DNA of 64,000 bases from Carboxylicivirga sp. M1479 (lineage in GTDB: Bacteria; Bacteroidota; Bacteroidia; Bacteroidales; Marinilabiliaceae): the NCBI RefSeq assembly GCF_007097485.1, contig NZ_VKDE01000008.1:1-64000 (forward strand). Direction: 5' to 3'. Below are positions 12,630 through 35,563 of the stretch, one piece after another. Position 1 is the first letter of the stretch. Each line of letters opens with the position of its first letter. The notes beneath the pieces are model-generated. The model was not told where the DNA came from. It did no database searches and saw only the letters and a list, made by a program, of their open reading frames with translations. The translations under genes were made by a program, and so were the position numbers.

Positions 12630-14075
12630 ATGTGGACTTTTATTGGGGCCATTGTAGCCTTAATACTTGGCTTTATCTTTTACGGAAGATTTATTGAGCG
12701 TTTCTTTGGTGCTGATGATAGTCGTCCAACACCAGCTATTAAACACAACGATGGGGTAGACTTTTCACCCATGCCCACCTGGAAAGTATTTACTATACAG
12801 TTTTTAAATATAGCAGGTTTGGGGCCTATTTTTGGCGCAATATTAGGCGCAATGTACGGTCCAATGGCCTATTTATGGATTGTTTTTGGCTGTATATTTA
12901 TGGGGGCCACTCACGATTATTTTTCGGGTATGTTATCCATAAGGCATGGAGGAGCGAGTATTCCTGAAATTGTAGGTAAGTATCTGGGAAAAGGGTTTCA
13001 GAATTTCTTACGGGTATTCACCTTGTTGCTACTAGTATTTGTTGGGGTTGCTTTTGTGTCTGGTCCGGCAGGACTGCTGGCCAACCTTACAGGTGGAGGC
13101 TTAACGATTTGGTTGTATGTTATTTTCGCTTATTACCTGGTCGCAACTCTTTTGCCTATTAATAAGATTATAGGTAAAATATATCCTCTTTTTGGAGCAG
13201 CATTAATTATTATGGCCCTTGCTATTGCAGTTGCCATGTTGTTGGGTGGTATTTCAGGTACTGTTGAAATGCCCGAATTATCAATTTCTAGTTTTGCGAA
13301 TTGGCACCATAATCCAAGTGAAAACATCTTGTTTCCGATGATGTTTATTGTTATTTCCTGTGGTGCATTAAGTGGATTTCATAGTACTCAAGCTCCTATG
13401 ATGGCGCGTACGATAAAAAAAGAAAGCTATGGTAGGTATGTATTTTATGGGGCTATGATCGCCGAGGGGATAGTGGCAATTATATGGGCCACCGCTGCCA
13501 TGACATTCTTTGGGGATGCCAATGGATTAAATGCGACCATGCAGATAGATGGTCATAACCCTGCCTGGGTAGTGAACGAAATTAGTGTTGCCTGGCTTGG
13601 GAGTGTAGGAGCGATTTTCGCCATAATTGGTGTTATAGCTTGTCCTATAACAACAGGTGACACAGCTTTTAGAAGTGCACGCCTAACGATAGCCGATGTA
13701 TTTAAATTTGATCAATCGACCATCAAACGAAGACTAATTATAAGCGTTCCGCTTTTCGCCGTTGGTTTTGTGTTATCACAATTGGAGTTTGCAACTATCT
13801 GGAAGTATTTGGGCTTGTCCAATCAAATTTTAGCCGTCGTGGTACTCTGGACTGGAGCTATGTATTTGGTAAAAGTTAAAAAAGCACACTGGTACTTATC
13901 ACTACCAGCTGTATTTATGACTGTGGTATGTTTGTCTTACCTTTTGGTAGCACCTTTTAAAAATGGAGGCTTTGCAATGGATACTTCTCTTGGTTTTAGT
14001 TTAGGTTTAATAGGTGGAGTTTTAGCATTATTTTTGTTTTTTATAAAAGCCAGGCGTCACTATAAGGTAAGTTGA
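12630..14075 (+). CDS. cstA: Carbon starvation protein CstA family transporter
   Basis: A 481-aa polytopic membrane protein with at least 11 hydrophobic segments. CstA-family features are QFLNIAGLGPIFGAILGAMYG (key part IAGLGPIFGAI), MGATHDYFSGMLSIRHGGAS and SGFHSTQAPMMART. It is shorter than E. coli CstA (about 700 aa) and corresponds to the compact form found in many Bacteroidetes and Firmicutes. CstA proteins import peptides or pyruvate during carbon limitation; the choice between them is open. It has a good promoter at 12571-12601. A 7-bp hairpin (TTATGGC/GCCATAA, 14118-14136) lies in the gap before the next gene. Confidence 0.94.
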   Translation: MWTFIGAIVALILGFIFYGRFIERFFGADDSRPTPAIKHNDGVDFSPMPTWKVFTIQFLNIAGLGPIFGAILGAMYGPMAYLWIVFGCIFMGATHDYFSGMLSIRHGGASIPEIVGKYLGKGFQNFLRVFTLLLLVFVGVAFVSGPAGLLANLTGGGLTIWLYVIFAYYLVATLLPINKIIGKIYPLFGAALIIMALAIAVAMLLGGISGTVEMPELSISSFANWHHNPSENILFPMMFIVISCGALSGFHSTQAPMMARTIKKESYGRYVFYGAMIAEGIVAIIWATAAMTFFGDANGLNATMQIDGHNPAWVVNEISVAWLGSVGAIFAIIGVIACPITTGDTAFRSARLTIADVFKFDQSTIKRRLIISVPLFAVGFVLSQLEFATIWKYLGLSNQILAVVVLWTGAMYLVKVKKAHWYLSLPAVFMTVVCLSYLLVAPFKNGGFAMDTSLGFSLGLIGGVLALFLFFIKARRHYKVS

Positions 14076-14179
14076 AATAGGCTACAGTAATTCTTTGACA
14101 TAAAGAGAGATGATTGATTATGGCGTATTGCCATAAAGAACAAAAATAGAGCAACTAAAAAACAATACAATTGAGGTCA

Positions 14180-15298
14180 ATGAATAAACGCTTGATTGAA
14201 AATAACGAGAAGCAGTGGATTATAGATGCCTTGAGCGGCAAACGACCTGCCTTAACAGAGCTTTATGATGTGGATGTTCTTGTGGAGTCGGCAGTGAAGA
14301 ATGGTTTAGCGGCTGTGCTTTTTCAAATGATAAATGAGAAGAAGCTTGACTTTACTTCTGAGTTGAAAGAACAGTTGAAAAAGGCCTATTTCTCAAACAT
14401 GGTCAGAAATATGACCATTAGTAGTGTGTGGCAAGAGTTAATACATGTATTTGCCGATAAACACTATCGATACATTCCATTAAAAGGCATTTTTTTATCG
14501 CAGTATATTTACGATGATATGACTTTGCGCGCCATGAGTGATATTGATGTACTAATGTTGCCGGAGCATGCCGAAAAAATGTACTTGACAATGCTTGAAA
14601 TGGGGGCTGTTACATCTGAACCTCATTACGTGGCAAAAGACGACACAAGTGATCATCACCTGCCAGGACTGAGTTATAAAGGAGTATATATTGAGTTACA
14701 TCGAGGTATTTTGCCCGCTGACGCTAGTTTTAATATACCATCGGAGTTTATTTGGAGTAAAGCAATTGATAATAATGGAAGTCTTCGAATACATCCGCAC
14801 ATTAATTTGATATACCTATGCTTGCATCTGTATTATACTGTACGTCAAGGGGGAATCCGCTTATCCTGGTTGTATGACTTTATAATTTATAGTCAATCCG
14901 ATGAATTTATGCAGTGTCAAGGAGATTTTATGCGAGTACTTAGGGATTTAAAGTGTGCGGATCCCGTATTGGCGGTTTTGTATACTACGGAAAAGCTTTT
15001 TGATCATTCATTCTCGTTTATAGAGTACAATGTTTCGTCAAAGACTATTAGAAACGTTCAGAAACGAATGATTTATTTTATCAATAATGAACTTGAGAGT
15101 AGTACCGAATATGGTTACGAAATTGCCTTTGAACGATTAAAGAATCAAAAGGGAATAGCAGCTAAGCTTGAATTTATCAAAGAGAGGATTTTTAAACCAG
15201 AAAACGCTCAGTCAGGTACTATGAAACGCTTGGCTACCTTGGGCGGTCGTTTCTTGGGTATGGTTTGGCAGAAAATTACAAGTCCTTTTCGTTTCTAA
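14180..15298 (+). CDS. Uncharacterised nucleotidyltransferase-fold protein (NTP_transf_5-like)
   Basis: A 372-aa soluble protein. The start is the ATG at 14180, preceded by GAGG, rather than an in-frame TTG at 14171. RYIPLKGIFLSQYIYDD followed by MSDIDVLML gives the GhG/DxD-like metal motif of the nucleotidyltransferase superfamily (Asp pair in DIDVL), and IELHRGI carries a third likely acidic site. Such proteins in Bacteroidetes are often near polysaccharide or coenzyme PQQ-type peptide loci, but none is adjacent here. It may be cotranscribed with cstA (104-bp gap, no clear terminator). The substrate is unknown. Confidence 0.8.
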   Translation: MNKRLIENNEKQWIIDALSGKRPALTELYDVDVLVESAVKNGLAAVLFQMINEKKLDFTSELKEQLKKAYFSNMVRNMTISSVWQELIHVFADKHYRYIPLKGIFLSQYIYDDMTLRAMSDIDVLMLPEHAEKMYLTMLEMGAVTSEPHYVAKDDTSDHHLPGLSYKGVYIELHRGILPADASFNIPSEFIWSKAIDNNGSLRIHPHINLIYLCLHLYYTVRQGGIRLSWLYDFIIYSQSDEFMQCQGDFMRVLRDLKCADPVLAVLYTTEKLFDHSFSFIEYNVSSKTIRNVQKRMIYFINNELESSTEYGYEIAFERLKNQKGIAAKLEFIKERIFKPENAQSGTMKRLATLGGRFLGMVWQKITSPFRF

Positions 15299-15360: not shown

Positions 15361-16332
15361 TTACACTTCCTGATAAACAGGTATGATATCTTTGACGCGC
15401 TGTGCAAAAAAGTCTTTAGTAGCAGTGTAATTTCGTGTGAAACCTAAAAAGAAACCTCCACCGCCCGATCCGCATAGTTTAAGCGTGTAAAGCTGGTTGT
15501 TCAGTCCTTCACTCCATAAGGATTGAATGTGTTGAGGAATCATCTCATTGAAGTTTTTCAATTGAAATCTTGAGAGGGGTATTAAATTATTGAACATCAT
15601 ATCTAACTGTCCATTAAGCATCGATTTTATGCATTGATTGGTAAGTGGAATGAGTTGTGTATTAATTTTCTCTTTGAATTTTATATCCTTTGTTTTATCC
15701 ATGAATAGCTTTACCAATGGCCCTGTTTTGCCAGTTGTTTCGGCATCAACCAAAAAGATTGCATCTTCGTTTAGTATATCTCTTCTTGGAATACTAACCG
15801 ATGAAATATGCTGGGCATTTTCAAGTACAATAGGGTGTTTTAAGTAGCAAATTAAGGGGTCAATGCCTGAACTGGTACCATGATAAAACGATTCAATTTG
15901 AGCAAAGGCCTTTTTTAATTGAAACAGATCATCATCGCTCATGCCCGCACTAGCCTCAATTGCCTTGTTGGCATACTCATGGTAAAGAGCGGCAACCAAT
16001 GCGCCGCTACTTCCTAATCCATAACCTTCTGGTATTGATGATTCAAAGTACAAACCCTTTTCAATATCGCTTGCCAATCGGCTTGTATCAATATCGGCCA
16101 CCAATTGGTTGCTTTTTTCTAAAATTGAGATGTACTCAAATAACTCTTTAAGCTGCAAATTAGAGTGTTTTGCAAAGTTGAGGTTGGTGTAGCTATTGTG
16201 GTTAATAAAGCGTAATTCGCCGTTGAAGTGGGAGTACGGAATGGTTAAGCCCATTGAACCCATAATAATGCTGTACTCGCCAAAGAGCATTACTTTTGAA
16301 TAATATATTTCTTTCTTTTGTTCGCTTTGCAT
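15361..16332 (-). CDS. Mevalonate kinase (GHMP kinase family)
   Basis: A 323-aa cytoplasmic GHMP kinase. The ATP-binding glycine/serine loop is PEGYGLGSSGALVAAL (about residues 101-116). HGTSSGIDPLICYL near residue 172 is the family mid-motif with the catalytic Asp, and LCGSGGGGFFLGF near the C terminus is motif 3. KVMLFGEYSIIMGSMGL at the start resembles mevalonate kinase KVILFGEHAVVYG. It would phosphorylate mevalonate. I start at the ATG at 16332, just after the stop of mvaD (16349); a longer frame would overlap mvaD. It is the last gene of the nine-gene mevalonate/acyl-CoA run. Confidence 0.85.
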   Translation of the reverse strand: MQSEQKKEIYYSKVMLFGEYSIIMGSMGLTIPYSHFNGELRFINHNSYTNLNFAKHSNLQLKELFEYISILEKSNQLVADIDTSRLASDIEKGLYFESSIPEGYGLGSSGALVAALYHEYANKAIEASAGMSDDDLFQLKKAFAQIESFYHGTSSGIDPLICYLKHPIVLENAQHISSVSIPRRDILNEDAIFLVDAETTGKTGPLVKLFMDKTKDIKFKEKINTQLIPLTNQCIKSMLNGQLDMMFNNLIPLSRFQLKNFNEMIPQHIQSLWSEGLNNQLYTLKLCGSGGGGFFLGFTRNYTATKDFFAQRVKDIIPVYQEV

Positions 16333-16348
16333 GCTTTGTATTCTTGGT

Positions 16349-17386
16349 TTAATCCTTCGAGATGTGATCATAAATAACCTCGCCATTTTCACATAGAACC
16401 TTTAGGTGTTCTTGTATAAATGGTTTAATGATCTTGCTTTGTGATGATGGGTAAATGAGGTGGATATTAGGGCCGGCATCCAAGGTAAATGTCAATGGTA
16501 TGTGATGATGTTCTCTAAACTTTTTAATGCGCTTGATGGCTCTTAGCGTCTCAGGTGCCATCAGTGTATAAGCTGGTGATGAGCTCATCATCAGACCATG
16601 TAAACTCAAAGCTTCTTCTTCACAAATGGTAGCGAAAGCATCAAAATCGCCTGTTTTTAAGGCCTTTAATAGAAGTTCTGTGTTTTTATTGGCTTGTTGT
16701 ATGCGTCCTTCGCGGTAAGGGTGTTTCTCCATTAGTTGATGACCAACTGTACTGCTTACCGATTTGGCACCCTTTCGAATAACCAATATCGAGTCCTGTA
16801 AATCCTTAAATGTAGAATGAATATCCGCTTGTATGGAGATACCGTATTGGTTACTCGCTTGCTTATTTAAGGGTGTTTCTCCCCAAAGAGCCCACCCTGC
16901 CTGGGTTGAACGACAAGCGCTGCCTGAACCTAAGCGAGCCATAATTGATGTTAACTCCTCTTTAGCTTGATGAATAGCATTGGCATCAATTTGCATTTGA
17001 ATATCATAAAGTGCTTTAGCAATGGAAGCCATTGAGCTGGCTGACGATGCGATACCACTGGAATGAGGAAAAGTATTGGCGCTCTCAATACGTAAGTGAC
17101 CTGTTTTTAGGAACGGTAAATATTCATGTAGCCGATTAACAAGTGTTTGTAATTTGGGTACAAATGAACTTTTGCTTTGGCCTTCGAATAGAAACTCAAT
17201 TGTTAAGGCCCCTGTTCCTGCCGTATATTTAATGTTTGTGTTGGTTAGTGCTTGCGAAAGGGTAAAGCTGATGCTTGGATTAACAGGTTCTTGAATTGCT
17301 TGTTTTCCCCAGTACTTTACAATAGCGATGTTTGAGGGGGCGCTGGATGCTGCAGTAAAAGAAGTATTCGTTACAGATGAATTCAT
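16349..17386 (-). CDS. mvaD: Diphosphomevalonate decarboxylase
   Basis: A 345-aa GHMP-superfamily enzyme. The N-terminal signature NIAIVKYWGKQ (residues about 19-29) is diagnostic for diphosphomevalonate decarboxylase. FPHSSGIASSASSMASI is the ATP loop, and GSACRSTQAGWALWG is the Ser-rich catalytic stretch. The invariant Asp appears in FTLDAGPNIHLIYP. It makes isopentenyl diphosphate from mevalonate 5-diphosphate with loss of CO2. One base separates its start from the stop of the upstream GHMP kinase, so the genes are coupled. Confidence 0.95.
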   Translation of the reverse strand: MNSSVTNTSFTAASSAPSNIAIVKYWGKQAIQEPVNPSISFTLSQALTNTNIKYTAGTGALTIEFLFEGQSKSSFVPKLQTLVNRLHEYLPFLKTGHLRIESANTFPHSSGIASSASSMASIAKALYDIQMQIDANAIHQAKEELTSIMARLGSGSACRSTQAGWALWGETPLNKQASNQYGISIQADIHSTFKDLQDSILVIRKGAKSVSSTVGHQLMEKHPYREGRIQQANKNTELLLKALKTGDFDAFATICEEEALSLHGLMMSSSPAYTLMAPETLRAIKRIKKFREHHHIPLTFTLDAGPNIHLIYPSSQSKIIKPFIQEHLKVLCENGEVIYDHISKD

Positions 17387-17387
17387 G

Positions 17388-18311
17388 TTATTGAATTTTT
17401 AGCTCATTAAACTTAAAAACAGGCGAGCAGCCCTTATTGCCGAAGTAGGAGTTGATGTATGCTTCATCTTCCTTGGAAACCACCATCATAAAATCGCCTC
17501 CCCAGGCACCTAATGATTTAACGTAACCTTTAAAATCATTATAACGATCAGGTTTAATCGCTTTTAAATCAACCTTGTTGGCTACAATTTTTTCATGTTC
17601 TTCGATCAGCTGTCCAAAATCATCTAAAGCTTCACATACAATCATTTTATCTGTGAGGTGGTTAATTTGTTGGATGTCCTTGGGATTGACCTCTAGTTGA
17701 TTAAAGCGACTAATTTCGTTTTTACTACTTTGTTTGTTGCCAGTGTAGATGAAATATATGTTGTTAGCAAACAATGGAGAAAAATTGATCTGCTCTACTT
17801 TGGGAGCGCCATAAATTAATTGATAAGTAATGGGGGAGTTGGCCGTGGCACAGGCAATGTCGTAACCAGAACCACCAAATGTATCTTCCAATAAGAAATA
17901 GGGCTGAACCCCCAACCATTGAGATAATAAAGAGATTAAGGTAGAGCTGCTTCCCCAACCCCAGTCAGGGTTAAATTCAAGATGTGTTTCTACCTTTTTA
18001 TGGGCCATAATGTCTTTAACATCTGGTCGGTAATTAACACATGTTTTTAATATGGATGCCAGTTTTTGAGCCAGTTTTGTATTGTCTGTCTTAATAATTT
18101 GAAGTGTTTCGTCATATTCAGCGGTAAACCAATGTCCTAGTTTGTTAGATGCCTGCCAAGTTAGAAAGGGCGTTTGATTACTCTCAACTTTTAGTGATTG
18201 ACCGTATTTAAGTGGGAGTGCCAGTGCTTTAGCGCCTGCCAAAACCAGATATTCAGCTGAGAGTAGTAACTTTCCGTGTGCGTAATATGATTCTATTGTT
18301 TCGTTTTGCAT
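17388..18311 (-). CDS. GYDIA-family GHMP kinase, candidate phosphomevalonate kinase
   Basis: A 307-aa GHMP kinase. HGKLLLSAEYLVLAGAKAL at the start is the motif 1 region. WGWGSSSTLISLL (117-129) is the ATP loop, and GGSGYDIACA (146-155) contains the GYDIA string that names this Bacteroidetes family. Mevalonate kinase and the decarboxylase are encoded next door, and the only missing kinase step is mevalonate-5-phosphate to the diphosphate, so phosphomevalonate kinase is the natural inference. The C-terminal AWGGDFMMV is a variant of GHMP motif 3. It abuts the HMG-CoA reductase gene with no gap. Confidence 0.82.
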   Translation of the reverse strand: MQNETIESYYAHGKLLLSAEYLVLAGAKALALPLKYGQSLKVESNQTPFLTWQASNKLGHWFTAEYDETLQIIKTDNTKLAQKLASILKTCVNYRPDVKDIMAHKKVETHLEFNPDWGWGSSSTLISLLSQWLGVQPYFLLEDTFGGSGYDIACATANSPITYQLIYGAPKVEQINFSPLFANNIYFIYTGNKQSSKNEISRFNQLEVNPKDIQQINHLTDKMIVCEALDDFGQLIEEHEKIVANKVDLKAIKPDRYNDFKGYVKSLGAWGGDFMMVVSKEDEAYINSYFGNKGCSPVFKFNELKIQ

Positions 18312-19616
18312 TTATCCCCTTTGTTCATTCAAAAAATTCTCAACCGTTGTGTAACTAACCACGCTATCTTTAAAATGTTTGGTGGCCAGTATTTTTTCAT
18401 CAGCCGAGGCATCCAATGCATTTAGTACATTGCTTAAATGCAGTTTCATATGGCCTTTTTGTATGCCAGTTGTTACCAATGAAGCTACAGCACCAAAGTT
18501 GTTGGCTAATCCTGCTGCTGCGCTAATGGCCATTAATTGTTCGGCAGATGGCTTCTTAAGTATTTGCATGGCCGCTTTTGCAAGAGGATGCGTATTGGTT
18601 AGTCCGCCTACGGTTCCCATCGCCAATGGTACTTTAAGGGTGTATTCAAAATGTGTTTCGCTAAGCTGTATTGTAGTGAGCGAAGAATAGGTTTTGTCTT
18701 TTGATGCATAGGCCTGCGCACCTGCTTCAATGGCTCTGAAATCGTTGCCTGTGGCCAATACAACGGCATCAATGCCATTAAAAATTCCTTTGTTGTGAGT
18801 AACGGCTCTATACGGGTCGTTAATAGCTATGTCAACGGCTGTTTTAAATCGTTGAGCAAACTCTAATGGTGTAAAGTTGCCTGCATAAGGTAAGAGGTTT
18901 TCAATTTCGCATTTTACAGTGCATTCAACCAAACACTCGGGTGTGTAATTGCTCAGTATCGACATGATAACGCTCGCCTCTTCATTGGCTTTAAGCTCCT
19001 TGTGTTGATTGATAAAATTGACCAAATGAGGGGCGATGGCTTCCAGACAAGTGTTGATGAAATTAGCTCCCATTGAATCGGCTGTTCGAAACTGTATCAA
19101 TGCCTGATGGGTGTTTTCCATATTAGGCACCGATTTAAACTCAAGGCCAACAATACCTCCCCCGCGTTGGCGCATCTTAAATGTGATGTCATCCGTTAGC
19201 GAATGAATCAATTCTAGTATCTCATGCTTATAGTTTTCGAGTTGTTGAATTGAGCCCTTCCAATTGAAGAATATTTGACCGTTTTTAAGGGTGTCGATTA
19301 TTTTTGTTTTGAAACCGCCGTTTTTAGCCCAAAAACTTGCTGCTTTTGATGCGGCTGCCACCACCGAACTCTCTTCAATAACCATTGGCACCATGTATAA
19401 CTCATCGTTAATAAGAAAATTGGGCGCAATGCTGAATGGCAAATAATAATTAGAGATGATGTTCTCTGAAATATCGTTAAATAAATGTTGCTTCTCTTTA
19501 TGGAGAAAGTCTTGAAAGGCATTTTCGTACTCGGGAGCCAGGTTTTGTTGCTCTATAAGGACCTTTACTTTTTCCTCACGACTCAGTTTTGAAAATCCTT
19601 TTATGAGTGATTGCAT
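18312..19616 (-). CDS. mvaA: Class II hydroxymethylglutaryl-CoA reductase
   Basis: A 434-aa class II HMG-CoA reductase, the soluble bacterial form without a membrane domain. Signatures are RTADSMGANFINTCLEA (HMG-binding), NKGIFNGIDAVVLATGND (catalytic Lys and Asp), and a Glu in the N-terminal VIEESSVVAAASKAA segment. GTVGGLTNTHPLA is the C-terminal nucleotide-domain loop. It interconverts HMG-CoA and mevalonate. In Pseudomonas mevalonii such enzymes are degradative, but downstream mevalonate kinase and mvaD make a biosynthetic direction likely here. Cofactor preference is not readable with confidence. It lies 6 bp from the IPP isomerase stop. Confidence 0.95.
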   Translation of the reverse strand: MQSLIKGFSKLSREEKVKVLIEQQNLAPEYENAFQDFLHKEKQHLFNDISENIISNYYLPFSIAPNFLINDELYMVPMVIEESSVVAAASKAASFWAKNGGFKTKIIDTLKNGQIFFNWKGSIQQLENYKHEILELIHSLTDDITFKMRQRGGGIVGLEFKSVPNMENTHQALIQFRTADSMGANFINTCLEAIAPHLVNFINQHKELKANEEASVIMSILSNYTPECLVECTVKCEIENLLPYAGNFTPLEFAQRFKTAVDIAINDPYRAVTHNKGIFNGIDAVVLATGNDFRAIEAGAQAYASKDKTYSSLTTIQLSETHFEYTLKVPLAMGTVGGLTNTHPLAKAAMQILKKPSAEQLMAISAAAGLANNFGAVASLVTTGIQKGHMKLHLSNVLNALDASADEKILATKHFKDSVVSYTTVENFLNEQRG

Positions 19617-19622
19617 ATAAGC

Positions 19623-20618
19623 TTATTTTACTTTTAAAAAGTTATTCGCCAAGTGCCAGCCGTCTTTTAAAGTCTCTATATAAATCTGAAGCTTTTCATA
19701 GTCGCCCATAGCATGGCGCAAAAAGGCAGAACCCATACCATAAATAGCTGGTATTTTAGAAATAGACGTTAGGTAGTAACCATCTAGTAAATTGCTGATG
19801 CCACCCGAAATAATCAATTGCTTAACTTTTAATTGCTCTTCAGGTAGTTCGTCAACAAGCTGATTAACCATGCGTGTCATGTCCTCTGCGGTATGTCCAA
19901 CATGTATAAAGGGATTAAAAACTTCAGCAGAGATGGCATTGGAACGGTTAAGCTCTACCAATGAAAAATTAGTGCCTCCCATGGCCGAAAATTCAATGGC
20001 TTCAATGGGTAGCTGCAATAACTGACGCAGGCTATTTTGTCCAAATCCTTGCCCAACCTCTTTCACCACCAGTTTTAGTGAAGTGCGCTCAAGAAAATCT
20101 TGCAATAACTCTATTGCAGGTCTTTTTATGATGTCACCTTCGGGTTGAAAAGCTTCCTGTAAGGGGTTAATGTGTATGATTAAACCATCGGCATCTAACT
20201 TTTCAACCAGCTCACCCAATTTATCGGTTGATTGATCTTCTAGCATGGCTTCCAACTGACAAATGCCTATGTTGGCAAGCAAAGGAGCTTCATCACCCAT
20301 TATGGGGCGCACATTAAAGTCATTGAAATGTTCAGGTGAATCTAATAATATACGACAGGAACCCAATCCCATGCCCAAGCCAAATTCGGCACATGCTTGC
20401 GCCAGATTTTTATTAATGGTGCCCGCTCGCTTGGTGCCGCCAGTCATGCTCGAGACCCACAATGGCATCTGCATTTTTTTACCTAAAAACGTATAGGATT
20501 GCTCTTGTTGCTCATGGGTGCCAAATAAAGGCTCATAATCAAAGCGTTTATCAACATACTTGCCATCTAATTTCGAACTAAAGGCTAAATCAATATGGTC
20601 GCGTTTCCTGTCTTCCAT
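19623..20618 (-). CDS. fni: Type 2 isopentenyl-diphosphate delta-isomerase
   Basis: A 331-aa FMN-dependent enzyme. The start MEDRKRDHIDLAF has the family RKxDH motif. MPLWVSSMTGGTKRAGTINK is the FMN-binding loop, EVGQGFG and EFSAMGGTNFSLVE line the active site, and IISGGISN is the phosphate-binding strand. It converts isopentenyl diphosphate to dimethylallyl diphosphate and needs FMN and NAD(P)H. It sits between the acyl-CoA dehydrogenase (36-bp gap) and HMG-CoA reductase (6-bp gap), joining the isoprenoid and acyl-CoA halves of the run. Confidence 0.94.
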   Translation of the reverse strand: MEDRKRDHIDLAFSSKLDGKYVDKRFDYEPLFGTHEQQEQSYTFLGKKMQMPLWVSSMTGGTKRAGTINKNLAQACAEFGLGMGLGSCRILLDSPEHFNDFNVRPIMGDEAPLLANIGICQLEAMLEDQSTDKLGELVEKLDADGLIIHINPLQEAFQPEGDIIKRPAIELLQDFLERTSLKLVVKEVGQGFGQNSLRQLLQLPIEAIEFSAMGGTNFSLVELNRSNAISAEVFNPFIHVGHTAEDMTRMVNQLVDELPEEQLKVKQLIISGGISNLLDGYYLTSISKIPAIYGMGSAFLRHAMGDYEKLQIYIETLKDGWHLANNFLKVK

Positions 20619-20654
20619 TCCTTTTTGTTTAATAAGGGTAAAAATAAGCTGAAC

Positions 20655-21803
20655 TTATTCTATTCCCAAATGCTTGCTGATAACAATGCGTAAAATTTCA
20701 GAAGTTCCTTCGCCTATCTGCAAAATGCGTTGGTCGCGATAGAAGCGTTCTATAGCTGAGGACTTCAATAAACCTTGACCAGAGAATATTTGCACTGCTT
20801 CATCGGAAATTTCCTTGGCAATATCGCTGCAATATAATTTTGCCATGGCTGCTTCTTTGCCAAATGGTTTGCCTGCATCTTTTAATGCACATGCATTGTA
20901 CAAGGTATTACGAGCTAACTCCAGCTTCAAAGCCATATCAGCCAGCTTAAATGACGTGACTTGGTATTGCGATATCTTCTTTCCAAACTGTTCGCGCTTT
21001 TTGGCATAATCCATGGCCATTTCAAAGGCTCCTTGTGCCAGGCCAAGTCCCATGGCTGCAATTGATAAACGACCAGAATCGAGTGTTTTAAGCATTTGGC
21101 CTAAACCTTTGTCCTTTTTACCTAGCAATTGGTCTTTGGCTACTTTAATATCTTTGAATGTTAATTCTGCTGTATCAGAAGCACGCCACATCATTTTGCC
21201 ATACATGCGTTTTGTTTCAAAGCCTTCACTTTCTCTATCTACCAAAATGGTTGAAAACCGTTTCTTTCCATTCTCCTCATTGCTTACGGCGAGTACTGTT
21301 GTACCTATCATTAATTCGTTGCTACCGTTGGTAATGTACCTTTTGTTACCATTTACTAACCAGTGGTCGCCATTATCCTGGGCAATGCTTTGCACGCCCT
21401 GGGCATCGGAGCCAGCCGTTACCTCGGTTAATCCAAAAGCCCAAAGTGCGTCTCCTGATGTGAGTTGAGGGACGTATTTCTGGCGTTGTGCATCAGTGCC
21501 AAAGTTATAAATCGGAGCGAGGCCAAGACTGTTATGGGCAGCCATGGTAGCGGCCTGTGAGCTGTCTACCCGCGCTAACTCTTCAACTGCAATAATGTAT
21601 GATAAGGTATCCAGACCTTGTCCCCCAAATTCAGTGGGTAGGTCAATACCGTATAAACCTGCTTGTCCCATCTTTTTTGATAATTCTACCGAGAATGTTT
21701 CGTGTTCATCCAATTCGGCAGCAAGTGGTGCTATTTCTTTTTCTGCGAAATCTCTTACTTTTAATCTGAATTGTTCGTGCTTTTCTGTACTAAGTATTGA
21801 CAT
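20655..21803 (-). CDS. Acyl-CoA dehydrogenase (short-chain type active site)
   Basis: A 382-aa FAD-dependent acyl-CoA dehydrogenase of normal length, with the N-terminal helical, middle beta and C-terminal helical domains. AFGLTEVTAGSDAQG is the FAD/substrate strand. The catalytic base is Glu365 in QIGEGTSEI, as in short- and medium-chain dehydrogenases. Isovaleryl-CoA dehydrogenases have Ala there (GAGTSE) and place the base in a DLER segment; here that segment reads LDSGRLSI. So despite its neighbours it does not have the canonical isovaleryl-CoA active site. It may still use a branched short acyl-CoA. A 141-bp gap separates it from the carboxylase genes and could hold a promoter. Confidence 0.93.
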   Translation of the reverse strand: MSILSTEKHEQFRLKVRDFAEKEIAPLAAELDEHETFSVELSKKMGQAGLYGIDLPTEFGGQGLDTLSYIIAVEELARVDSSQAATMAAHNSLGLAPIYNFGTDAQRQKYVPQLTSGDALWAFGLTEVTAGSDAQGVQSIAQDNGDHWLVNGNKRYITNGSNELMIGTTVLAVSNEENGKKRFSTILVDRESEGFETKRMYGKMMWRASDTAELTFKDIKVAKDQLLGKKDKGLGQMLKTLDSGRLSIAAMGLGLAQGAFEMAMDYAKKREQFGKKISQYQVTSFKLADMALKLELARNTLYNACALKDAGKPFGKEAAMAKLYCSDIAKEISDEAVQIFSGQGLLKSSAIERFYRDQRILQIGEGTSEILRIVISKHLGIE

Positions 21804-21944
21804 ATTTTATGGCTTATTTTTATCGTTCTATGGTATTTGTAACTGTGCTTTTTTCTCGTTTGATGATAAAGACTGAGACTCAATGTTTCAAACTAGTCCT
21901 TTTGGTTTTATGCATGTTTGCGCATATTCTGGTTGATCATAATT

Positions 21945-23867
21945 CTATTGGTATTTTAGTAATGTTTGATTGAGTTTTACTTGTTGACCAGCGGCGATGT
22001 ACACCGCTTTAATGGTGCCATCTTTCCATGCTTTAATATGGTTTTCCGTTTTCATGGCTTCCAATACCAGCAGCAAATCGCCTTTTTTAACTTTCTGTCC
22101 ATTTTCAATGTTTACCTTCATTACCTGCGATGGAATTGGAGCCAGGTATTTATTACCGTTGAATGTTGATTCTTTATTTTCGGCAGGTTTGTAAGGGGGC
22201 AACCAGTCATGCACCGTTACAATATTTGAATTATTCTGATGGATGATCTCCACCTTGTCATCTTCCTCAAAGCAGTAAAATTGATGTACTTGTTGCTTGT
22301 AAGTGAATTCAAGTGTATGATTTGACAGGGTAATTCCATTCAAATCATATGTTTGATTTTGTAGAAGAATACTTATTTCTTCTCCATGTTGGCTAACAGA
22401 AGCAGATAGCTCCTTAGCACTTAAGGAAAATCGAAACTGTTGCAATTGTCGCCAAAAACGATTTTGTAATTTTTTATGCCGATAAGCCAGGTAGGCCATT
22501 GCAATAAGACTTGAATGATCGTTGTTGCTTGTGAGTTCATCCAAATTATTCTCACAAAAGCGAGTGTCGACCGCTGCCTTACTAAATGTTTTATGCTTAA
22601 GGATGTTATTGATAAAGCCAGCATTGGTCTTTAATCCTTGGATGATTAATTGATGGTTGGCTTTGAGTGCTTTTTCAACGGCCTTATCTCTGTTTGAGGC
22701 ATGCACAATTATTTTGGCCAACATAGGATCGAACTGAGAATGAATCTCAATAGCCTCCAGAAAACCAATTTCAATACGTGCTTCATTGCTTTTGGGCAAA
22801 AGTAAAGCTTGTATTTTCCCAGGCTTGGGTTGGAAGTTGTTATTGGGATCTTCGGCACAAATACGCAGCTCAATGGCATGGCCAAGGAGCGGAACATCTT
22901 CTTGCTGAAGAGTTAATGGTTTTTGGTTGGCAATGAGGAACTGCCATTTGACCAAGTCAATGCCCGTTACTTCCTCGGTAACACAATGTTCTACTTGAAT
23001 GCGGGTATTCATCTCCAAAAAGTAGTGCTGACCTTTTTCATCCACTAAAAATTCTATGGTGCCAGCACTTTTATAGCCAATTGTTTGGCAAATTTTGAGC
23101 GCATCGGCATATAAACGCTGCTTAATGGCATCTGGTAGGTTATGAGCAGGAGCTTCTTCAATAATCTTCTGAAAACGTCTTTGGATAGAGCATTCACGCT
23201 CATACAAATGAATTGTTTTTCCAGTATGGTCAGCCAATACCTGCACCTCTATGTGCCGTGCTTTTGCTATGTATTGCTCAACATAAAGGCGATCGTCGCC
23301 AAAATAGCGTTGGGCCTGCTTACTAAGAATAGGTAGCTGTAAAACTAAGTCATCTTTGCTGTTGCAAACCTGCATGCCTTTGCCACCGCCTCCCATGGCC
23401 GCCTTAACCAGCACAGGGTAGGACAATGAATCGGCCTCCGATAAAATCGTTTGTAGTTTGCCTTGCCACGATTGGGTAAGTGGGATGCCAGCTTCTCTGG
23501 CAATGGTGCGGGCCACTTGCTTGTCGCCCATTTGTTGCAAATTAATAACAGAGGGGCCGATGAATATGAGTTTATTGGCCAAGCAAGCTTTTGCTAAGAG
23601 GTGGCTTTCCGATAAAAATCCATATCCTGGATGTATGCTATCGGCATCATATTGTTTGGCTAATTCAATAATTAGGGGGATGTTCAAATAGTTATCTTCG
23701 AAAGGACCATCTTTAAAAAAGTGCACTTCATCACTGAGCTGTGCAGGAAGCGTGTCTTTCTCCAATTCAGATAAAAGAACAAGCGTAGACAGTTCGAGTT
23801 CATGAGCTGCTTTTATGATGCGCACGGCAATTTCGCCCCTGTTGGGTATCAATACTTTCCTCATCAT
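21945..23867 (-). CDS. Biotin-dependent acyl-CoA carboxylase alpha subunit (3-methylcrotonyl-CoA type)
   Basis: A 640-aa biotin carboxylase with a fused carrier domain. The start is KVLIPNRGEIAVRI, the ATP-grasp glycine loop is KAAMGGGGKGMQV near residue 155, and the active-site stretch EMNTRIQVEHCVTEEVTG lies near residue 285. The C-terminal BCCP domain carries the biotinyl lysine in LEAMKTENH near residue 605. Length and layout match MccA/LiuD. It carboxylates its own biotin with ATP and bicarbonate and works with the beta subunit at 24659-26260. The hydratase between them points to 3-methylcrotonyl-CoA rather than propionyl-CoA as substrate. Confidence 0.92.
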   Translation of the reverse strand: MMRKVLIPNRGEIAVRIIKAAHELELSTLVLLSELEKDTLPAQLSDEVHFFKDGPFEDNYLNIPLIIELAKQYDADSIHPGYGFLSESHLLAKACLANKLIFIGPSVINLQQMGDKQVARTIAREAGIPLTQSWQGKLQTILSEADSLSYPVLVKAAMGGGGKGMQVCNSKDDLVLQLPILSKQAQRYFGDDRLYVEQYIAKARHIEVQVLADHTGKTIHLYERECSIQRRFQKIIEEAPAHNLPDAIKQRLYADALKICQTIGYKSAGTIEFLVDEKGQHYFLEMNTRIQVEHCVTEEVTGIDLVKWQFLIANQKPLTLQQEDVPLLGHAIELRICAEDPNNNFQPKPGKIQALLLPKSNEARIEIGFLEAIEIHSQFDPMLAKIIVHASNRDKAVEKALKANHQLIIQGLKTNAGFINNILKHKTFSKAAVDTRFCENNLDELTSNNDHSSLIAMAYLAYRHKKLQNRFWRQLQQFRFSLSAKELSASVSQHGEEISILLQNQTYDLNGITLSNHTLEFTYKQQVHQFYCFEEDDKVEIIHQNNSNIVTVHDWLPPYKPAENKESTFNGNKYLAPIPSQVMKVNIENGQKVKKGDLLLVLEAMKTENHIKAWKDGTIKAVYIAAGQQVKLNQTLLKYQ

Positions 23868-23871
23868 TGGC

Positions 23872-24678
23872 TTACTTTATGTACCACTTAGGCTGTCGCT
23901 TCTCAAAAAAGGCCGTGACGCCTTCTTGTCCTTCTTCACTGTTGCGTGCTTCCGCTATTTTGTTGATGCATAGTGTTTCCTGCTCATGAGAATCTAAGTT
24001 CTTGGATAATTGACTGATGAGTTGCTTGGTCGATTCCATAGCCTGTGCACTGTTGTTTTTAAATTGTTGGCATAGCTTGTCAACCCGTGTTTGTATTTCT
24101 TTACTGTGAGCTACCTCGTGTATCAAGCCTATTCTTTTGGCTTTTTTAGCTGTAAATACTTCGGCACTTAGCATTAAGGCCCTCGCCTGTGAATGGCCTA
24201 TTTTTTGAATAACGAAAGGGGCAATGGTTGCTGGTACAAGGCCTAGTTTAACTTCCGAAAAAGCCAATTGAACATCCTTCTCGGCAATCACATAATCGGC
24301 ACATGCCAATAGACCCAAAGCACCGCCCATGGCATATTTTTCTACCCACATAATTAGTGGCTTGGGAAAAGAGTTAAGCTTTGTAAAGAGCTCGTAAAAT
24401 AAGCCAGCATCTGCCTTATTCTCTTCTTCGCTTTGATGAAGTCCATCTTTCATCCATTGCAAATCGGCACCCGAGCAAAATACACCTCCTGCACCTCTCA
24501 TCACCACTACTTTTTGTTTGGGATCTGTAGCAATCGTATCCAAAACATTTATTAGCTTTTTAAGCATGCATTTCGAAAGTGCATTTTTTCGAGTCGTATC
24601 GTTGAGTAGAATGCGACTGATGCCATGTGATTGGTTTAACTGAACCAATAGATTATCGTTACATTCTGAAGATGCCAT
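23872..24678 (-). CDS. Enoyl-CoA hydratase, probable 3-methylglutaconyl-CoA hydratase
   Basis: A 268-aa crotonase-fold protein. The oxyanion-hole strands are [16 protein letters not shown] and [14 protein letters not shown], and the catalytic region is [26 protein letters not shown] and [12 protein letters not shown] match the LiuC/AUH subgroup that hydrates 3-methylglutaconyl-CoA to HMG-CoA. It lies between the two carboxylase subunits: it overlaps the beta-subunit gene by 20 bp, and 4 bp separate its stop from the alpha-subunit gene. This makes translational coupling likely. It is the step that feeds HMG-CoA to the reductase downstream. Confidence 0.9.
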
Positions 24679-26260
24679 ATTTTGTATCGTCTTTTTGTTC
24701 TTTACTAATAATATTTAATACTAATCCTGCTATTTGTCGGCTCGACTCAGGTATGATTATTCCATCGTCCCAAAGGCGACTTGTACTATAATAAGGCGAG
24801 CCCTCTGCTTCGTATTTTTTAATGATAGATGCTTCAATTTGAGCTAAGTCCTGTTCATTTACCTCTTTATTAAGTGCCGTTGCCTGATCACGTTTAATGG
24901 TAGTTAATACTTGTGCGGCCTGCTTGGCGCCCATCACTGAGATGCGCGCATTGGGCCACATGAACAGGAAGCGGGGATCGTAAGCCCGTCCGGCCATGGC
25001 ATAGTTACCTGCCCCATAGGAGCCACCCATTAAAATTGTGAAATACGGTACTTTGGAATTGGCCAATGCATTTACCATTTTGGCCCCGTCTTTAGCAATG
25101 CCCTTGTGTTCGTAGTTTTTACCCACCATAAACCCAGTAATGTTCTGCAGAAATAGCATGGGTATATTGCGCTCGTTGCACAACTGTATAAAGTGCGTGC
25201 CTTTTAGAGCCGATTCAGAAAACAGGATGCCATTGTTAGCCAATATGCCCACTTTTTTGCCTTCTATTTGGGCAAAGGCTGTTACGAGTGTTGTGCCATA
25301 TTCACTTTTAAACTCATGGAACGCACTGTCATCAACCAAACGGGCAATAATTTCATGTACATTCGGAAAGGGTTTGCCTGATTCGGGAATGAGGCCAAGC
25401 AACTCTTTAGTTGCATATTTAGGTGCTTGAAAGTTATTTTCTTGAACGTCATTCTGCTGTGGGAGTGTTTCAATAATGTTTCTGCAAATGTGCAAGGCGT
25501 GCTCATCGTTATCGGCCAGATGATCTGCCACACCCGATATTTGCGTATGAACAGCACCGCCTCCTAATTCTTCAGCACTTACTTCTTCGCCCGTTGCTGC
25601 TTTAACCAATGGGGGACCAGCCAAAAATATAGTGCCCTGCTCTTTAACAATTATTGTTTCGTCACTCATGGCTGGAACGTAAGCTCCACCAGCGGTGCAG
25701 GAGCCCATTACAATGGCTATTTGTGCGATGCCTTGTGCCGACATGCGTGATTGATTAAAGAATATGCGTCCAAAATCATCACGATCGGGAAATACCTCAG
25801 CTTGTTGTGGCAGAAATACACCGCCACTATCCACCATGTATATGCAGGGCAGATTATTTTGCTGTGCTATCTCTTGTGCTCGCAGGTGTTTTTTTATGGT
25901 TTCGCTAATGTACGTGCCTCCTTTAACGGTGGCGTCGTTGGCAATTACCATTACCCTGCGACCGTGTACCATGCCAATGCCGGTAATAATACCTGCTGCC
26001 GGAAAAGCATCATCGTACAGACCGTTAGCAGCCAATGCCGATAATTCTAAAAAGTAGGAATCTTTATCCAGTAAATAGTCGATTCGCTGACGTACTGGTA
26101 ATTTCCCTTTGGCCATGTGTTTCTGCAGCGCTTTATTACCTCCTCCTTGTTGAATGTGTTGTAGCTTTTGAAAGTATTCGTCAGCTAAAGATTGATTCAA
26201 CTGTTGGTTTTTAATAAAGGCTTCAGAATTGGTATTTATGCTTGAATTGTACTTAAACAT
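24659..26260 (-). CDS. Acyl-CoA carboxylase beta subunit (3-methylcrotonyl-CoA type carboxyltransferase)
   Basis: A 533-aa carboxyltransferase with two crotonase-like halves. [21 protein letters not shown] (key part [10 protein letters not shown]) is the usual start, [19 protein letters not shown] the N-half acyl-CoA loop, [15 protein letters not shown] the central loop, and [19 protein letters not shown] the C-half loop. Length and motifs fit MccB/LiuB. It transfers CO2 from biotin on the alpha subunit to 3-methylcrotonyl-CoA, giving 3-methylglutaconyl-CoA. It is the first gene of the nine-gene run. A REP-like repeat lies about 100 bp upstream of its start. Confidence 0.93.
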
Positions 26261-26360
26261 CTTTTATTCTCTATTCGCCAATTATAACCTTTTCAAAGGC
26301 TAAATGTTCAGGTGAAAAGTGGGAATAATGCCTATTTAAAAGGAATAATGTGCGTATTAA

Positions 26361-26452
26361 TTTCATCTATTGGGCTATCCGCCCAAACCGGACTTACTTT
26401 TTGTTCTTGATCACAAAAACTAAGGAAAAAAGATCAAGGCTACTTTTTAAAT
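26361..26452 (-). repeat. REP-like dispersed repeat, copy A
   Basis: Read on the minus strand: TTTAAAAAGTAGCCTTGA, a stem CTTGATC/GATCAAG (26406-26412 with 26432-26438), then AAGTCC, then GTTTGGGCGGATAGCCCAAT, itself a hairpin TTGGGC/GCCCAA. Copy B at 40544-40636 shares both ends and keeps the first stem with different paired bases. The copy points toward the beta-carboxylase start at 26260. Confidence 0.75.
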
Positions 26453-26925
26453 AGTTTTCTTATTTATCTCAAACTTAAGTTCGGCCGGATGATTTCCGAA
26501 TCAAGTTCGGAACTTTCCGGTCTCCCTAAAGTTTTCAACAAAACGAAAGCTATTTAAAATAGAGGCCATAAGGTTGGCATATTATTGAATCTTGATTAGA
26601 ATGAGAGATAGTTATACAAACCAAGTGAAGGTTATTATTTTCACGATAATACCCTTGGCTGCTAAGTTTGTTAAACAATTAATAATGTATAAAGCCTTTA
26701 CTTTTATGAGGGGCATTGTGGTGGTGATCTTACTTAACACTTTACCATTGTAGTCTGGTGCTTCATTTTAGAAGCTCTATTTGGTGCTGAAACTGAAGAA
26801 GTAGAGAGGGGAGGATTATAAACAATTGTGTAAATAACAGTGTGCGTAATTTGTCAATCACTACTGAGCTAGGTTGTGGGTATTCGCTGACAGGTAGTTT
26901 ACTGTTGTTTTTTGTTAGCGAAAGA
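26453..26925. other. Gene-free stretch
   Basis: No gene recognised. TTCGG-rich short inverted strings occur around 26476-26521 (AAGTTCGG, CCGGA). A hairpin TTCGCT/AGCGAA (26883-26888 with 26917-26922) precedes the tandem array. Open frames here are short and have no family features. Confidence 0.4.
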
Positions 26926-27145
26926 CTAAAATGTGCCGATATCAAACGATATTTTGGAAAACAACGACTAAAATGCCCGATACTGTTGGTATTTGTCTGT
27001 TTTAGTAGTAAAAAGTGCCGATACCATTTGTATTTATGAGTCTAAGAACCAAAAAGGCTAAATACCATTGATTTTTGTGCTTTTTACTCTTAAGTGAGTC
27101 GATACAGTTTGTATCGAGAGAAAAATAAAAGATTATCGATATTAG
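26926..27145. repeat. Degenerate ~41-bp tandem repeat array, five to six units
   Basis: Units start near 26926, 26968, 27008, 27049 and 27090, with a weaker one near 27125. Each begins TAAAA(n)TGCC and has a small palindromic core such as CGATACnnnnGTAT, with core starts at about 26937, 26978, 27019, 27058, 27100 and 27137. The last full core, CGATAC..GTATCG, is a perfect stem. Units differ at many positions, so it is an old array. It directly abuts the inverted repeat at 27147. Confidence 0.7.
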
Positions 27146-27146
27146 G

Positions 27147-27325
27147 CTTTAACCCGCAATATGCATTAGAAAATCTATTACACATTGAAATTGCTTCAAA
27201 ACAAGTCACACCGTTGTTTCATCTCAACTCACCAGAACGATGCTATGCCTCGTTTCGATAAAACCTTGTTTTATTGCACTTTCAATGTTCATAACGACAT
27301 TCTAATACATAATGCGGGTTTAACG
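27147..27325. repeat. MITE-like imperfect inverted repeat of about 180 bp
   Basis: The left arm (about 27148-27206, starting TTTAACCCGCAATATGCATT) and right arm (about 27264-27324, ending ATGCGGGTTTAACG) pair over some 55-60 bases with mismatches. Shared blocks are AACCCGCA, TATTAGAA or CATTAGAA, ACATTGAAA and AAAACAAG. The intervening 57 bases are not coding. No clear target duplication was seen, so mobility is inference. Confidence 0.65.
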
Positions 27326-27339
27326 TAAAACGAAATAAC

Positions 27340-27364
27340 AAAAAAGCCTGACTACTGCCAGGCT
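27340..27364 (-). terminator. Rho-independent terminator of lolA
   Basis: AAGCCTG, loop, CAGGCTT, followed on the minus strand by TTTTTT. It lies 25 bases beyond the lolA stop. Confidence 0.85.
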
Positions 27365-27388
27365 TCACTATGGTATTGATATTTTCTC

Positions 27389-34365: not shown

Positions 34366-34504
34366 CTACACTTTCAAATGTTAAGCTTCTTCACAAAATG
34401 GGGCATATATTTTTGTGATGATCATAGAGTCAAAAGTGAATGAGAGAAGCCATTTTTTTGATAACGAATGATATTCACACATGTATAAAACTAATCAAAC
34501 TGAA

Positions 34505-35563
34505 ATGATGAAAAAGATGAATGACAGAATTGTAAAAGCTTGTTTAATACTGCTTAGCGTAGCTCTTTTTTCGTGTAGTGGTGATGATGGCGAAATTGGC
34601 CCAGAAGGCGCACAAGGACAAGTTGGACTGCAAGGTATGGTAGGACCTGCTGGCGCCGACGGATCGGTAATTTACAGCGGTGAAGGTGTACCTTTAGATG
34701 AAACGGGACTTAAAGGAGATTATTACTTTGATGCCAGCAATGGTAGTATTTATGGACCTAAGCCAAGCGACGAAAGTTGGAGTGATTCTGGTGTGTTTTC
34801 ACTGATGGGCAGCAATGGTGCAGATGGAAAAGATGGTGAAAATGGCAAAGATGGAACGGATGGTGTTGATGGCATTGATGGAAAGGATGGAGTAGATGGT
34901 AAAGATGGCGTGGATGGAAGCGATGGTGTTGATGGCAAAAACGGAAGTCAAATATTGGCTGGAGGAGGTATGCCTGATAATACCATTGGTAATTTAGGCG
35001 ACTTTTATTTAGATATTGAAACCTATACGCTTTATGGTCCTAAGGCAAAATCCCTTGAAATGAAAGGTAAGACCGTGTGGGGACCTGGATTGGTATTAAA
35101 AGGTGCTGATGGTAATGCCAATGTGCGCACCTTTAAATTAACCGTTACAACGGAGGATTGGAAAGTGACTCAGAACACAACATCAAATGAGTATAAATGG
35201 GCCGATTACAATGCAATTTTTCCTGCATTAACCCAGGATGTGTACGACAATGGAATTGTTCTGGTATATTGGAAAAATGGCTACTATCAATACCCACTGC
35301 CTTTTATCTCCTATACCATGAAGCAAAACTTAATGCAGCGAACGTATGCTTTGGTTTACGATAATTACGAAGACGTGTACCAATTAAAAATTAAAAAAAT
35401 GCTAGAAGCTCGTAACGATAAAACGGAATTATTATCTGTTGCAAGAAACCATTACATGATTAAATTGATTACAGGAAATGAAGCAGAACAGTTGAGAGCT
35501 GCCACAAATAGTCAACCAGACTTATACAAGGCTGCAGAGCAATTAGGATTGCTCAACGATTAA
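34505..35563 (+). CDS. Collagen-like repeat lipoprotein
   Basis: A 352-aa lipoprotein (start at ATG 34505; the lipobox FSC is followed by SGDDGE). It contains two collagen-like Gly-X-Y runs, a short one after the lipid site (GPEGAQGQVGLQG) and a longer one at about residues 112-150 built on GKDGVDG/GSDGVDG. Each run is followed by a similar module: GEGVPLDETGLKGDYYFD ending YGPK, and GGGMPDNTIGNLGDFYLD ending YGPK. The C-terminal 150 residues are globular and unrecognised. Probably a surface-exposed stalk protein. No proline-rich Y position is needed for bacterial collagen triple helices, so trimerisation is possible but unproven. Confidence 0.85.
   Translation: MMKKMNDRIVKACLILLSVALFSCSGDDGEIGPEGAQGQVGLQGMVGPAGADGSVIYSGEGVPLDETGLKGDYYFDASNGSIYGPKPSDESWSDSGVFSLMGSNGADGKDGENGKDGTDGVDGIDGKDGVDGKDGVDGSDGVDGKNGSQILAGGGMPDNTIGNLGDFYLDIETYTLYGPKAKSLEMKGKTVWGPGLVLKGADGNANVRTFKLTVTTEDWKVTQNTTSNEYKWADYNAIFPALTQDVYDNGIVLVYWKNGYYQYPLPFISYTMKQNLMQRTYALVYDNYEDVYQLKIKKMLEARNDKTELLSVARNHYMIKLITGNEAEQLRAATNSQPDLYKAAEQLGLLND

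Follow-up and report, generated by a model that had tools for sequence, protein, structure and literature searches.

What supplies the mevalonate pathway of Carboxylicivirga sp. M1479 with 3-hydroxy-3-methylglutaryl-CoA (HMG-CoA)? The question is raised by nine open reading frames (ORFs) that form a single run, all on the minus strand, at positions 15361–26260 of the stretch of DNA analyzed here (the window, the first 64,000 nucleotides of contig NZ_VKDE01000008.1). The first four genes encode the β subunit of a methylcrotonyl-CoA carboxylase (MCC), a 3-methylglutaconyl-CoA hydratase, the MCC α subunit, and an acyl-CoA dehydrogenase (ACAD). The remaining five encode isopentenyl-diphosphate isomerase (IDI2), HMG-CoA reductase (HMGR), a GYDIA family GHMP kinase, diphosphomevalonate decarboxylase (MVD), and mevalonate kinase (MK). 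The ORF list places all nine on one strand, in the order and at the positions given in a preliminary description of this DNA. We consider it very probable that the run is an operon that encodes every step from isovaleryl-CoA to isopentenyl diphosphate (IPP) and dimethylallyl diphosphate (DMAPP), fed by leucine and operating beside the 1-deoxy-D-xylulose 5-phosphate (DXP) pathway.

We infer the substrates, direction, and physiological use of the route as follows. A branched-chain 2-oxoacid ferredoxin oxidoreductase, encoded outside the operon, would form isovaleryl-CoA from leucine or from its precursor 4-methyl-2-oxopentanoate. The operon ACAD would turn isovaleryl-CoA into 3-methylcrotonyl-CoA, the biotin carboxylase (MCC) would add CO2 to the γ-methyl group, and the hydratase would yield HMG-CoA, which HMGR, MK, the GYDIA kinase, MVD, and IDI2 would carry to IPP and DMAPP. 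By known chemistry, the carboxyl introduced by MCC is the one of HMG-CoA that is not bound as thioester; HMGR reduces the thioester at the other end, and the decarboxylase acts on the free carboxyl. The CO2 fixed by the carboxylase would therefore be the CO2 lost at the decarboxylase, so that the C5 skeleton of isovaleryl-CoA would enter IPP intact. CO2 would serve as a temporary activating group, and C2–C6 of leucine would supply all five carbons of IPP. Such a route would substitute both for HMG-CoA synthase, the mevalonate entry, and for HMG-CoA lyase, the leucine exit.

Entry to and exit from HMG-CoA in the genome and its relatives

As the preliminary description had stated, the run holds neither a synthase nor a lyase gene, and searches elsewhere agree. 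The comparison set comprised 100 relatives, the source genome (5.4 Mb, 130 contigs, completeness 100%) included; 60 belong to the window's family, 13 congeners among them. The synthase profile PF01154 had no match in the source genome, the 13 congeners, or the 46 other family genomes. A synthase protein from another Bacteroidota genome, used as a query, found none in the source genome and 13 congeners; its matches fell in 4 of 79 genomes, all outside the family. By either method, the classical mevalonate entry was not detected in the source genome. The single PF01154 match among the 100 relatives lies in a genome (G071) that itself lacks HMGR, and none of the 51 HMGR-positive genomes has one. 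One congener is a single-contig genome, and few-contig family genomes that carry HMGR with no synthase match include G002 (one contig), G047 (one), and G043 (four).

Exits from HMG-CoA were sought in the same set. No genome of the 100 reaches the curated cut-off of the lyase model NF004283. Its matches comprise a strong set of five genomes (G064, G076, G085, G091, and G097; E 3e-57 to 4e-49), whereas most other relatives have only weak ones (E 1e-18 or more). A strong lyase-like match (E below 1e-48) was found in none of the 60 family genomes and in one of the 51 HMGR-positive genomes (G064). The source genome gives three weak matches, the best at E 6.2e-16; of the two examined, one is a 2-isopropylmalate synthase and the other a citramalate-synthase-like protein. 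AtuA, sought as an alternative exit, was found in four relatives (G069, G072, G075, and G089) and nowhere among the 60 genomes of the family. Some relatives from other families have a lyase or an AtuA gene next to these MCC genes. At two such loci (L202:12877–14679 and L205:6870–8687) an AtuA-family gene stands between MCC-α and ACAD; these relatives have no strong lyase match, and AtuA is a candidate there for the alternative exit from HMG-CoA.

The two halves of the run occur together. HMGR (PF00368) is present in 51 of the 100 relatives, the source genome included. Matches to MCC-β form two sets, one with E < 1e-100 at ≥58% identity and the other with E > 1e-78 at ≤36% identity; the 36% bound holds among the matches listed, and the best E per genome is complete. 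The strong set covers 54 genomes. Both genes occur in 50 relatives, HMGR only in one (G098), MCC-β only in four, and neither in 45 (Fisher p 1.8e-22, for relatives that are not independent); MCC-β is thus found in 50 of 51 HMGR-positive genomes versus 4 of the 49 others. Three of the four MCC-only genomes (G071, G085, G091, and G097) are in the strong lyase set. Within the window's family, 40 genomes have both, 20 have neither, and none is mixed; counted by genus, 10 have both, 11 neither, and none is mixed. This pattern, together with the failure to detect synthase and lyase, supports the proposal, already made in the preliminary description, that leucine carbon would pass straight into isoprenoids and not into acetoacetate.

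We consider it unlikely that HMG-CoA is instead made from acetyl-CoA by an unrecognized, non-homologous, or very divergent synthase, with the carboxylase half serving ordinary leucine catabolism. Homology searching never proves absence completely, and G098 has HMGR with neither an MCC nor a synthase match. With the archaeal synthase model TIGR00748, 40 of 41 genomes show weak matches (E up to 0.1), all of which stay below the cut-off. Among nine of the matched proteins, from eight genomes, six carry the motif HQANLR, which we take to be of FabH type. The best of the four matches in the source genome, examined as a possible hidden synthase, is KASIII-like (Pfam) and adjoins glycosyltransferase and hexapeptide-transferase genes, which argues against this alternative. 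So does the performance of PF01154, which detects Bacteroidota synthases where they are present (9 of 50 genomes in the wider survey below). Catabolism, moreover, needs an exit from HMG-CoA, and neither lyase nor AtuA was detected in the family, throughout which HMGR and MCC-β are jointly present or absent.

The gene order is conserved, as the check proposed in the preliminary description required us to ask. The comparison covered 53 loci around HMGR matches, window apart, and 48 of them have a window-type HMGR. All nine genes lie in the same order and on one strand in 33 of these 48, from 33 genomes, a count that ignores other genes lying between; insertions of up to 5.1 kb interrupt the run in some relatives. 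Because the order recurs at this frequency, it is not due to chance. Window included, 34 of the 51 HMGR-positive genomes have the full order. The order also occurs outside the family, in G079, G090, and Tangfeifania. Eight of the remaining 15 loci (L056, L057, L058, L060, L067, L080, L083, and L085) are cut off by the end of the contig on one or both sides. In L048 the first seven genes are present and the last two missing; at L039 the contig ends inside the decarboxylase, with no carboxylase half in ∼9 kb upstream; and L041, L044, L066, L068, and L086 are without the carboxylase half beside HMGR. In a tree of 67 MCC-β rows, the family rows form one supported set (39 rows, 100/97) that includes a named metagenome-assembled genome (MAG, L096), and other lineages, HMGR-linked or not, fall outside it.

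Some HMGR genes of relatives stand in other settings. G090 and G096 (L063 and L064) have two HMGRs each, one of window type and a second of 386–394 aa with a far higher PF00368 score; the loci of the second HMGRs gave no match to a mevalonate gene of window type. In G069 (L065:9384–11720) a PF00368 HMGR is fused to an APH-type phosphotransferase domain in a protein of 778 aa, possibly a reductase-kinase fusion. In G098, HMGR-GYDIA-MVD-MK lie at L216:8152–12498 beside a chaperonin gene, and the neighbors examined give no source of HMG-CoA.

Enzyme identities, contrary evidence, and the supply of isovaleryl-CoA

Identities were assigned from NCBIfam, Pfam, and PDB sequence searches. Genes for HMGR, MK, phosphomevalonate kinase, and the decarboxylase are all present, the two kinase roles (GYDIA and MK) resting on weak or family-level matches. 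The GYDIA kinase is the sole gene above its specific NCBIfam cut-off, by a model of class "hypoth_equivalog"; it is presumed to be the phosphomevalonate kinase from its position in the pathway. HMGR is of class II. Genes for the steps from isovaleryl-CoA to HMG-CoA (dehydrogenase, carboxylase, and hydratase) are likewise all present, with isovaleryl-CoA as the probable substrate of the dehydrogenase. Among PDB chains, MCC-α matches a biotin carboxylase first (425 bits) and then MCC-α chains (411 and 400 bits). In G064, the MCC cluster with the lyase-like gene has at the corresponding place an ACAD 61% identical to that of the window, which fits the same substrate. The motif EGT[ST]E is present in all 55 ACAD rows kept (those above 45% identity and longer than 300 residues, with some loci represented twice). 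Human-type isovaleryl-CoA dehydrogenase has its catalytic glutamate at another position; we therefore propose for this ACAD the reaction and do not claim the name.

It is very unlikely, in our judgment, that the enzymes of the carboxylase half (MCC, hydratase, and ACAD) have a different acyl-CoA as substrate (e.g., geranyl-CoA in terpene breakdown) and that their link to HMGR is regulatory only. In PDB the hydratase ranks first with the crotonases 4kpk and 3i47 and then with isohexenylglutaconyl-CoA hydratase (4zu2); we liken it to the LiuC/AtuE clades, and its resemblance to the AtuE type favors such a substrate, as does the AtuA gene that two relatives from other families have between MCC-α and ACAD. 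MCC-β scores alike to PDB chains labeled MCC β (8j4z, 666 bits; 3u9r, 661 bits) and to two labeled acetyl-/propionyl-CoA carboxylase (4q0g, 675 bits; 9tps, 664 bits). The score to geranyl-CoA carboxylase is far lower, however (441 bits; the next propionyl-type chain has 265), AtuA was not detected in the family, and the product of MCC and hydratase is the exact substrate of HMGR. Reverse flow, in which imported mevalonate would yield, via HMG-CoA and methylglutaconyl-CoA, isovaleryl-CoA for use in branched fatty acids, on the model of the myxobacterial alternative isovaleryl-CoA route, seems to us highly improbable: the best model of HMGR (TIGR00532) is named "degradative" and the best NCBIfam model of ACAD, below its cut-off, is an acryloyl-CoA reductase, but MK, the decarboxylase, and IDI2 of the same operon would draw mevalonate to IPP, no synthase was detected (PF01154) that would supply mevalonate, and a VorB-type protein could already supply isovaleryl-CoA.

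Several observations weigh against the leucine-fed route. HMGR, MVD, IDI2, and MK score below their NCBIfam cut-offs (Table 1). ACAD scores 302–334 bits to short-chain versus 228–233 bits to isovaleryl-CoA dehydrogenase PDB chains, and it keeps the glutamate of the short-chain type (EGTSE). The run is split after IDI2 in G034 and G053, with MCC-β, hydratase, MCC-α, ACAD, and IDI2 elsewhere in the genome; in G019 and G037, of one genus, the halves are unlinked, and MCC-β, hydratase, MCC-α, one further frame, and ACAD lie elsewhere. Three genomes (G069, G075, and G093) count as HMGR-positive through HMGRs at loci without window-type mevalonate genes. Five HMGR-positive genomes of other families keep AtuA (G069, G072, G075, and G089) or a lyase (G064). 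Besides the full operon, G079 carries two tandem thiolase-fold proteins (L196:2621–4709) that match TIGR00748 weakly and lack the FabH motif. The HMGR-only genome G098, of another family, matches none of MCC, synthase, lyase, and AtuA, which leaves the HMG-CoA of at least one HMGR unaccounted for. Finally, DXR is present, so the operon route may be dispensable.

A possible supply of isovaleryl-CoA lies outside the operon. The source genome has a match of 547 bits to NF005507 (cut-off 399), which we take to be of VorB type, and a cluster ilvC-leuA-leuC-leuD-cimA-like-leuB-ilvA. Together these suggest two possible origins of isovaleryl-CoA, leucine taken up from outside and endogenous synthesis. 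DXR (PF02670), the DXP-pathway gene that the searches covered, occurs in 99 of the 100 relatives, the source genome included (E 4.7e-45). The leucine-to-IPP route put forward in the preliminary description would accordingly stand as a parallel, second source of IPP and not as the sole one. We can only guess why both might be kept: the route might be a backup, tolerant of oxygen, for the iron-sulphur steps of the DXP pathway, or it might use excess branched acyl-CoA.

Known leucine routes and a wider survey

Passage of leucine into isoprenoids or sterols through HMG-CoA was already known, as the preliminary description had noted for trypanosomatids. A review describes a leucine shunt into the mevalonate pathway in Halobacterium salinarum and Leishmania mexicana, from isotope labeling (PMC8791446). 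The conversion proposed here is the same; it differs in its dedicated nine-gene bacterial operon, with no synthase or lyase detected and a DXP-pathway gene alongside. In myxobacteria the aib route leads from HMG-CoA to isovaleryl-CoA, with an mvaS involved, whereas the genes here point from isovaleryl-CoA to IPP and no synthase was found. The same intermediates connect leucine breakdown, HMG-CoA, and isoprenoids in the myxobacterial liu/aib routes, and deuterated dimethylacrylic acid is incorporated into a myxobacterial sesquiterpene (PMC7321100).

Two kinds of gene cluster each resemble one half of the run. The lyase-type leucine operon of G064 (L203) has MCC-β, hydratase, MCC-α, and ACAD in the same order, followed by a lyase-like gene, where the window has IDI2-HMGR-GYDIA-MVD-MK. 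Other Bacteroidota mevalonate clusters have these last five genes, in the same order where together, but 64 of 80 named loci, some of them on short contigs, have no MCC gene in the sequence covered. No report of this operon, or of a synthase-free, leucine-fed bacterial mevalonate pathway, was found in a literature that included few subscription journals. The accessible text of a 2026 review of bacteria with both pathways does not mention Bacteroid-, leucine, Marinilabil-, or Carboxylicivirga (PMC13001223).

If the proposal is right, these genomes encode an entry to the mevalonate pathway that dispenses with HMG-CoA synthase, and a leucine skeleton becomes an isoprene unit with no net loss of carbon from isovaleryl-CoA. 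The missing mvaS annotations ("holes") in these Bacteroidota would be explained, and their leucine catabolism would be read differently. The run would also be a small set of genes with which leucine or isovalerate could be turned into isoprenoids. To the knowledge of the authors of a 2021 review, the leucine shunt had not yet been built in E. coli (PMC8791446).

A wider survey took in 50 further HMGR-bearing genomes from the 80 named loci, many of them MAGs of unstated completeness. PF01154 matched in 9 of the 50 and in none of the other 41. DXR is lacking in 16 of 29 genomes chosen from the 50, and 3 of these 16 have a synthase match (G109, G134, and G147). The other 13 have HMGR with neither DXR nor synthase detected, e.g., Saprospira grandis (L122) and Psychroflexus halocasei (L168), which possibly marks a general annotation gap in the Bacteroidota mevalonate pathway. 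All 13 have an MCC-β-like match, five at 58–61% identity and eight at 45–50%; the latter may be other carboxylases. Since 49 of the 50 genomes have an MCC-β-like match, whether or not they have a synthase, such a match does not discriminate. Two of the 13 (G102, an Oligoflexia bacterium, and G103, a Bacteriovoracaceae bacterium) have MCC-β, hydratase, a two-frame MCC-α, and a lyase-like gene together (L209 and L210), and a divergent synthase may be present in genomes of this group. We propose only tentatively, and with more doubt than conviction, that leucine or isovaleryl-CoA could be the usual mevalonate entry in Bacteroidota and some Bacteriovoracaceae. If so, the leucine skeleton would be the source of every isoprenoid in organisms without DXR and synthase.

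Layout of the run and its flanks

Judged from the DNA, the nine-gene run is probably one operon, which would be cotranscribed (Table 1). The preliminary description had reported small gaps with one of 141 bp, and the junctions are indeed overlaps or gaps of 0–36 bp apart from that one. MCC-β and hydratase overlap by 20 bp; the following gaps, in order of transcription, are 4, 141, 36, 6, 0, and 1 bp; and MVD and MK overlap by 44 bp, given a GTG start for MK. A terminator scan, near chance as a whole (14 sites versus 11.5 expected), lists no terminator-like site within the 141-bp gap on the strand of the operon. Between the aligned parts, the MCC-α/ACAD junction measures 13–80 bp in 12 of the 13 congeners and 282 bp in G009.

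Table 1. Genes and intergenic features of the nine-gene run, in order of transcription after the upstream region
Feature	Position	Strand	Remarks
Intergenic leader or promoter region, lolA to operon	26261–27388	−	1.1 kb; no gene listed
MCC-β, carboxyltransferase subunit of methylcrotonyl-CoA carboxylase	24659–26260	−	533 aa; first gene
3-Methylglutaconyl-CoA hydratase, crotonase type	23872–24678	−	268 aa; Pfam ECH_1
MCC-α, biotin carboxylase and biotin carrier (EAMKT)	21945–23867	−	640 aa
141-bp gap, largest of the run	21804–21944	−	between MCC-α and ACAD
ACAD, acyl-CoA dehydrogenase; isovaleryl-CoA as proposed substrate	20655–21803	−	Glu motif IGEGTSEI, short-chain type
IDI2, type 2 isopentenyl-diphosphate isomerase	19623–20618	−	TIGR02151, 189 bits (cut-off 281); PDB 1vcf
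HMGR, HMG-CoA reductase	18312–19616	−	TIGR00532, 244 bits (cut-off 260); PDB 7n7s, 409 bits
GYDIA family GHMP kinase, presumed phosphomevalonate kinase	17388–18311	−	NF040656, 341 bits (cut-off 225); no PDB sequence match at the threshold used
MVD, diphosphomevalonate decarboxylase	16349–17386	−	TIGR01240, 167 bits (cut-off 171); PDB 3lto, 149 bits
MK, mevalonate kinase	15361–16392	−	last gene; TIGR00549, 73 bits (cut-off 163); no PDB sequence match at E 0.001; true start perhaps downstream of GTG

A terminator-like site at 27366–27343 follows lolA, upstream of the operon. The next genes downstream of the run (14171–15298 and 12630–14075) are on the opposite strand. The promoter scan is near chance (33 sites versus 32.3 expected), and an Rfam search of the window at gathering scores gave no match. 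The leader holds weak, short two-copy repeat families (TATCGGCAC-TTTTA type), also near chance. Elsewhere in the window, positions 34481–35563 encode a 360-aa protein with a match to the collagen triple-helix repeat PF01391.

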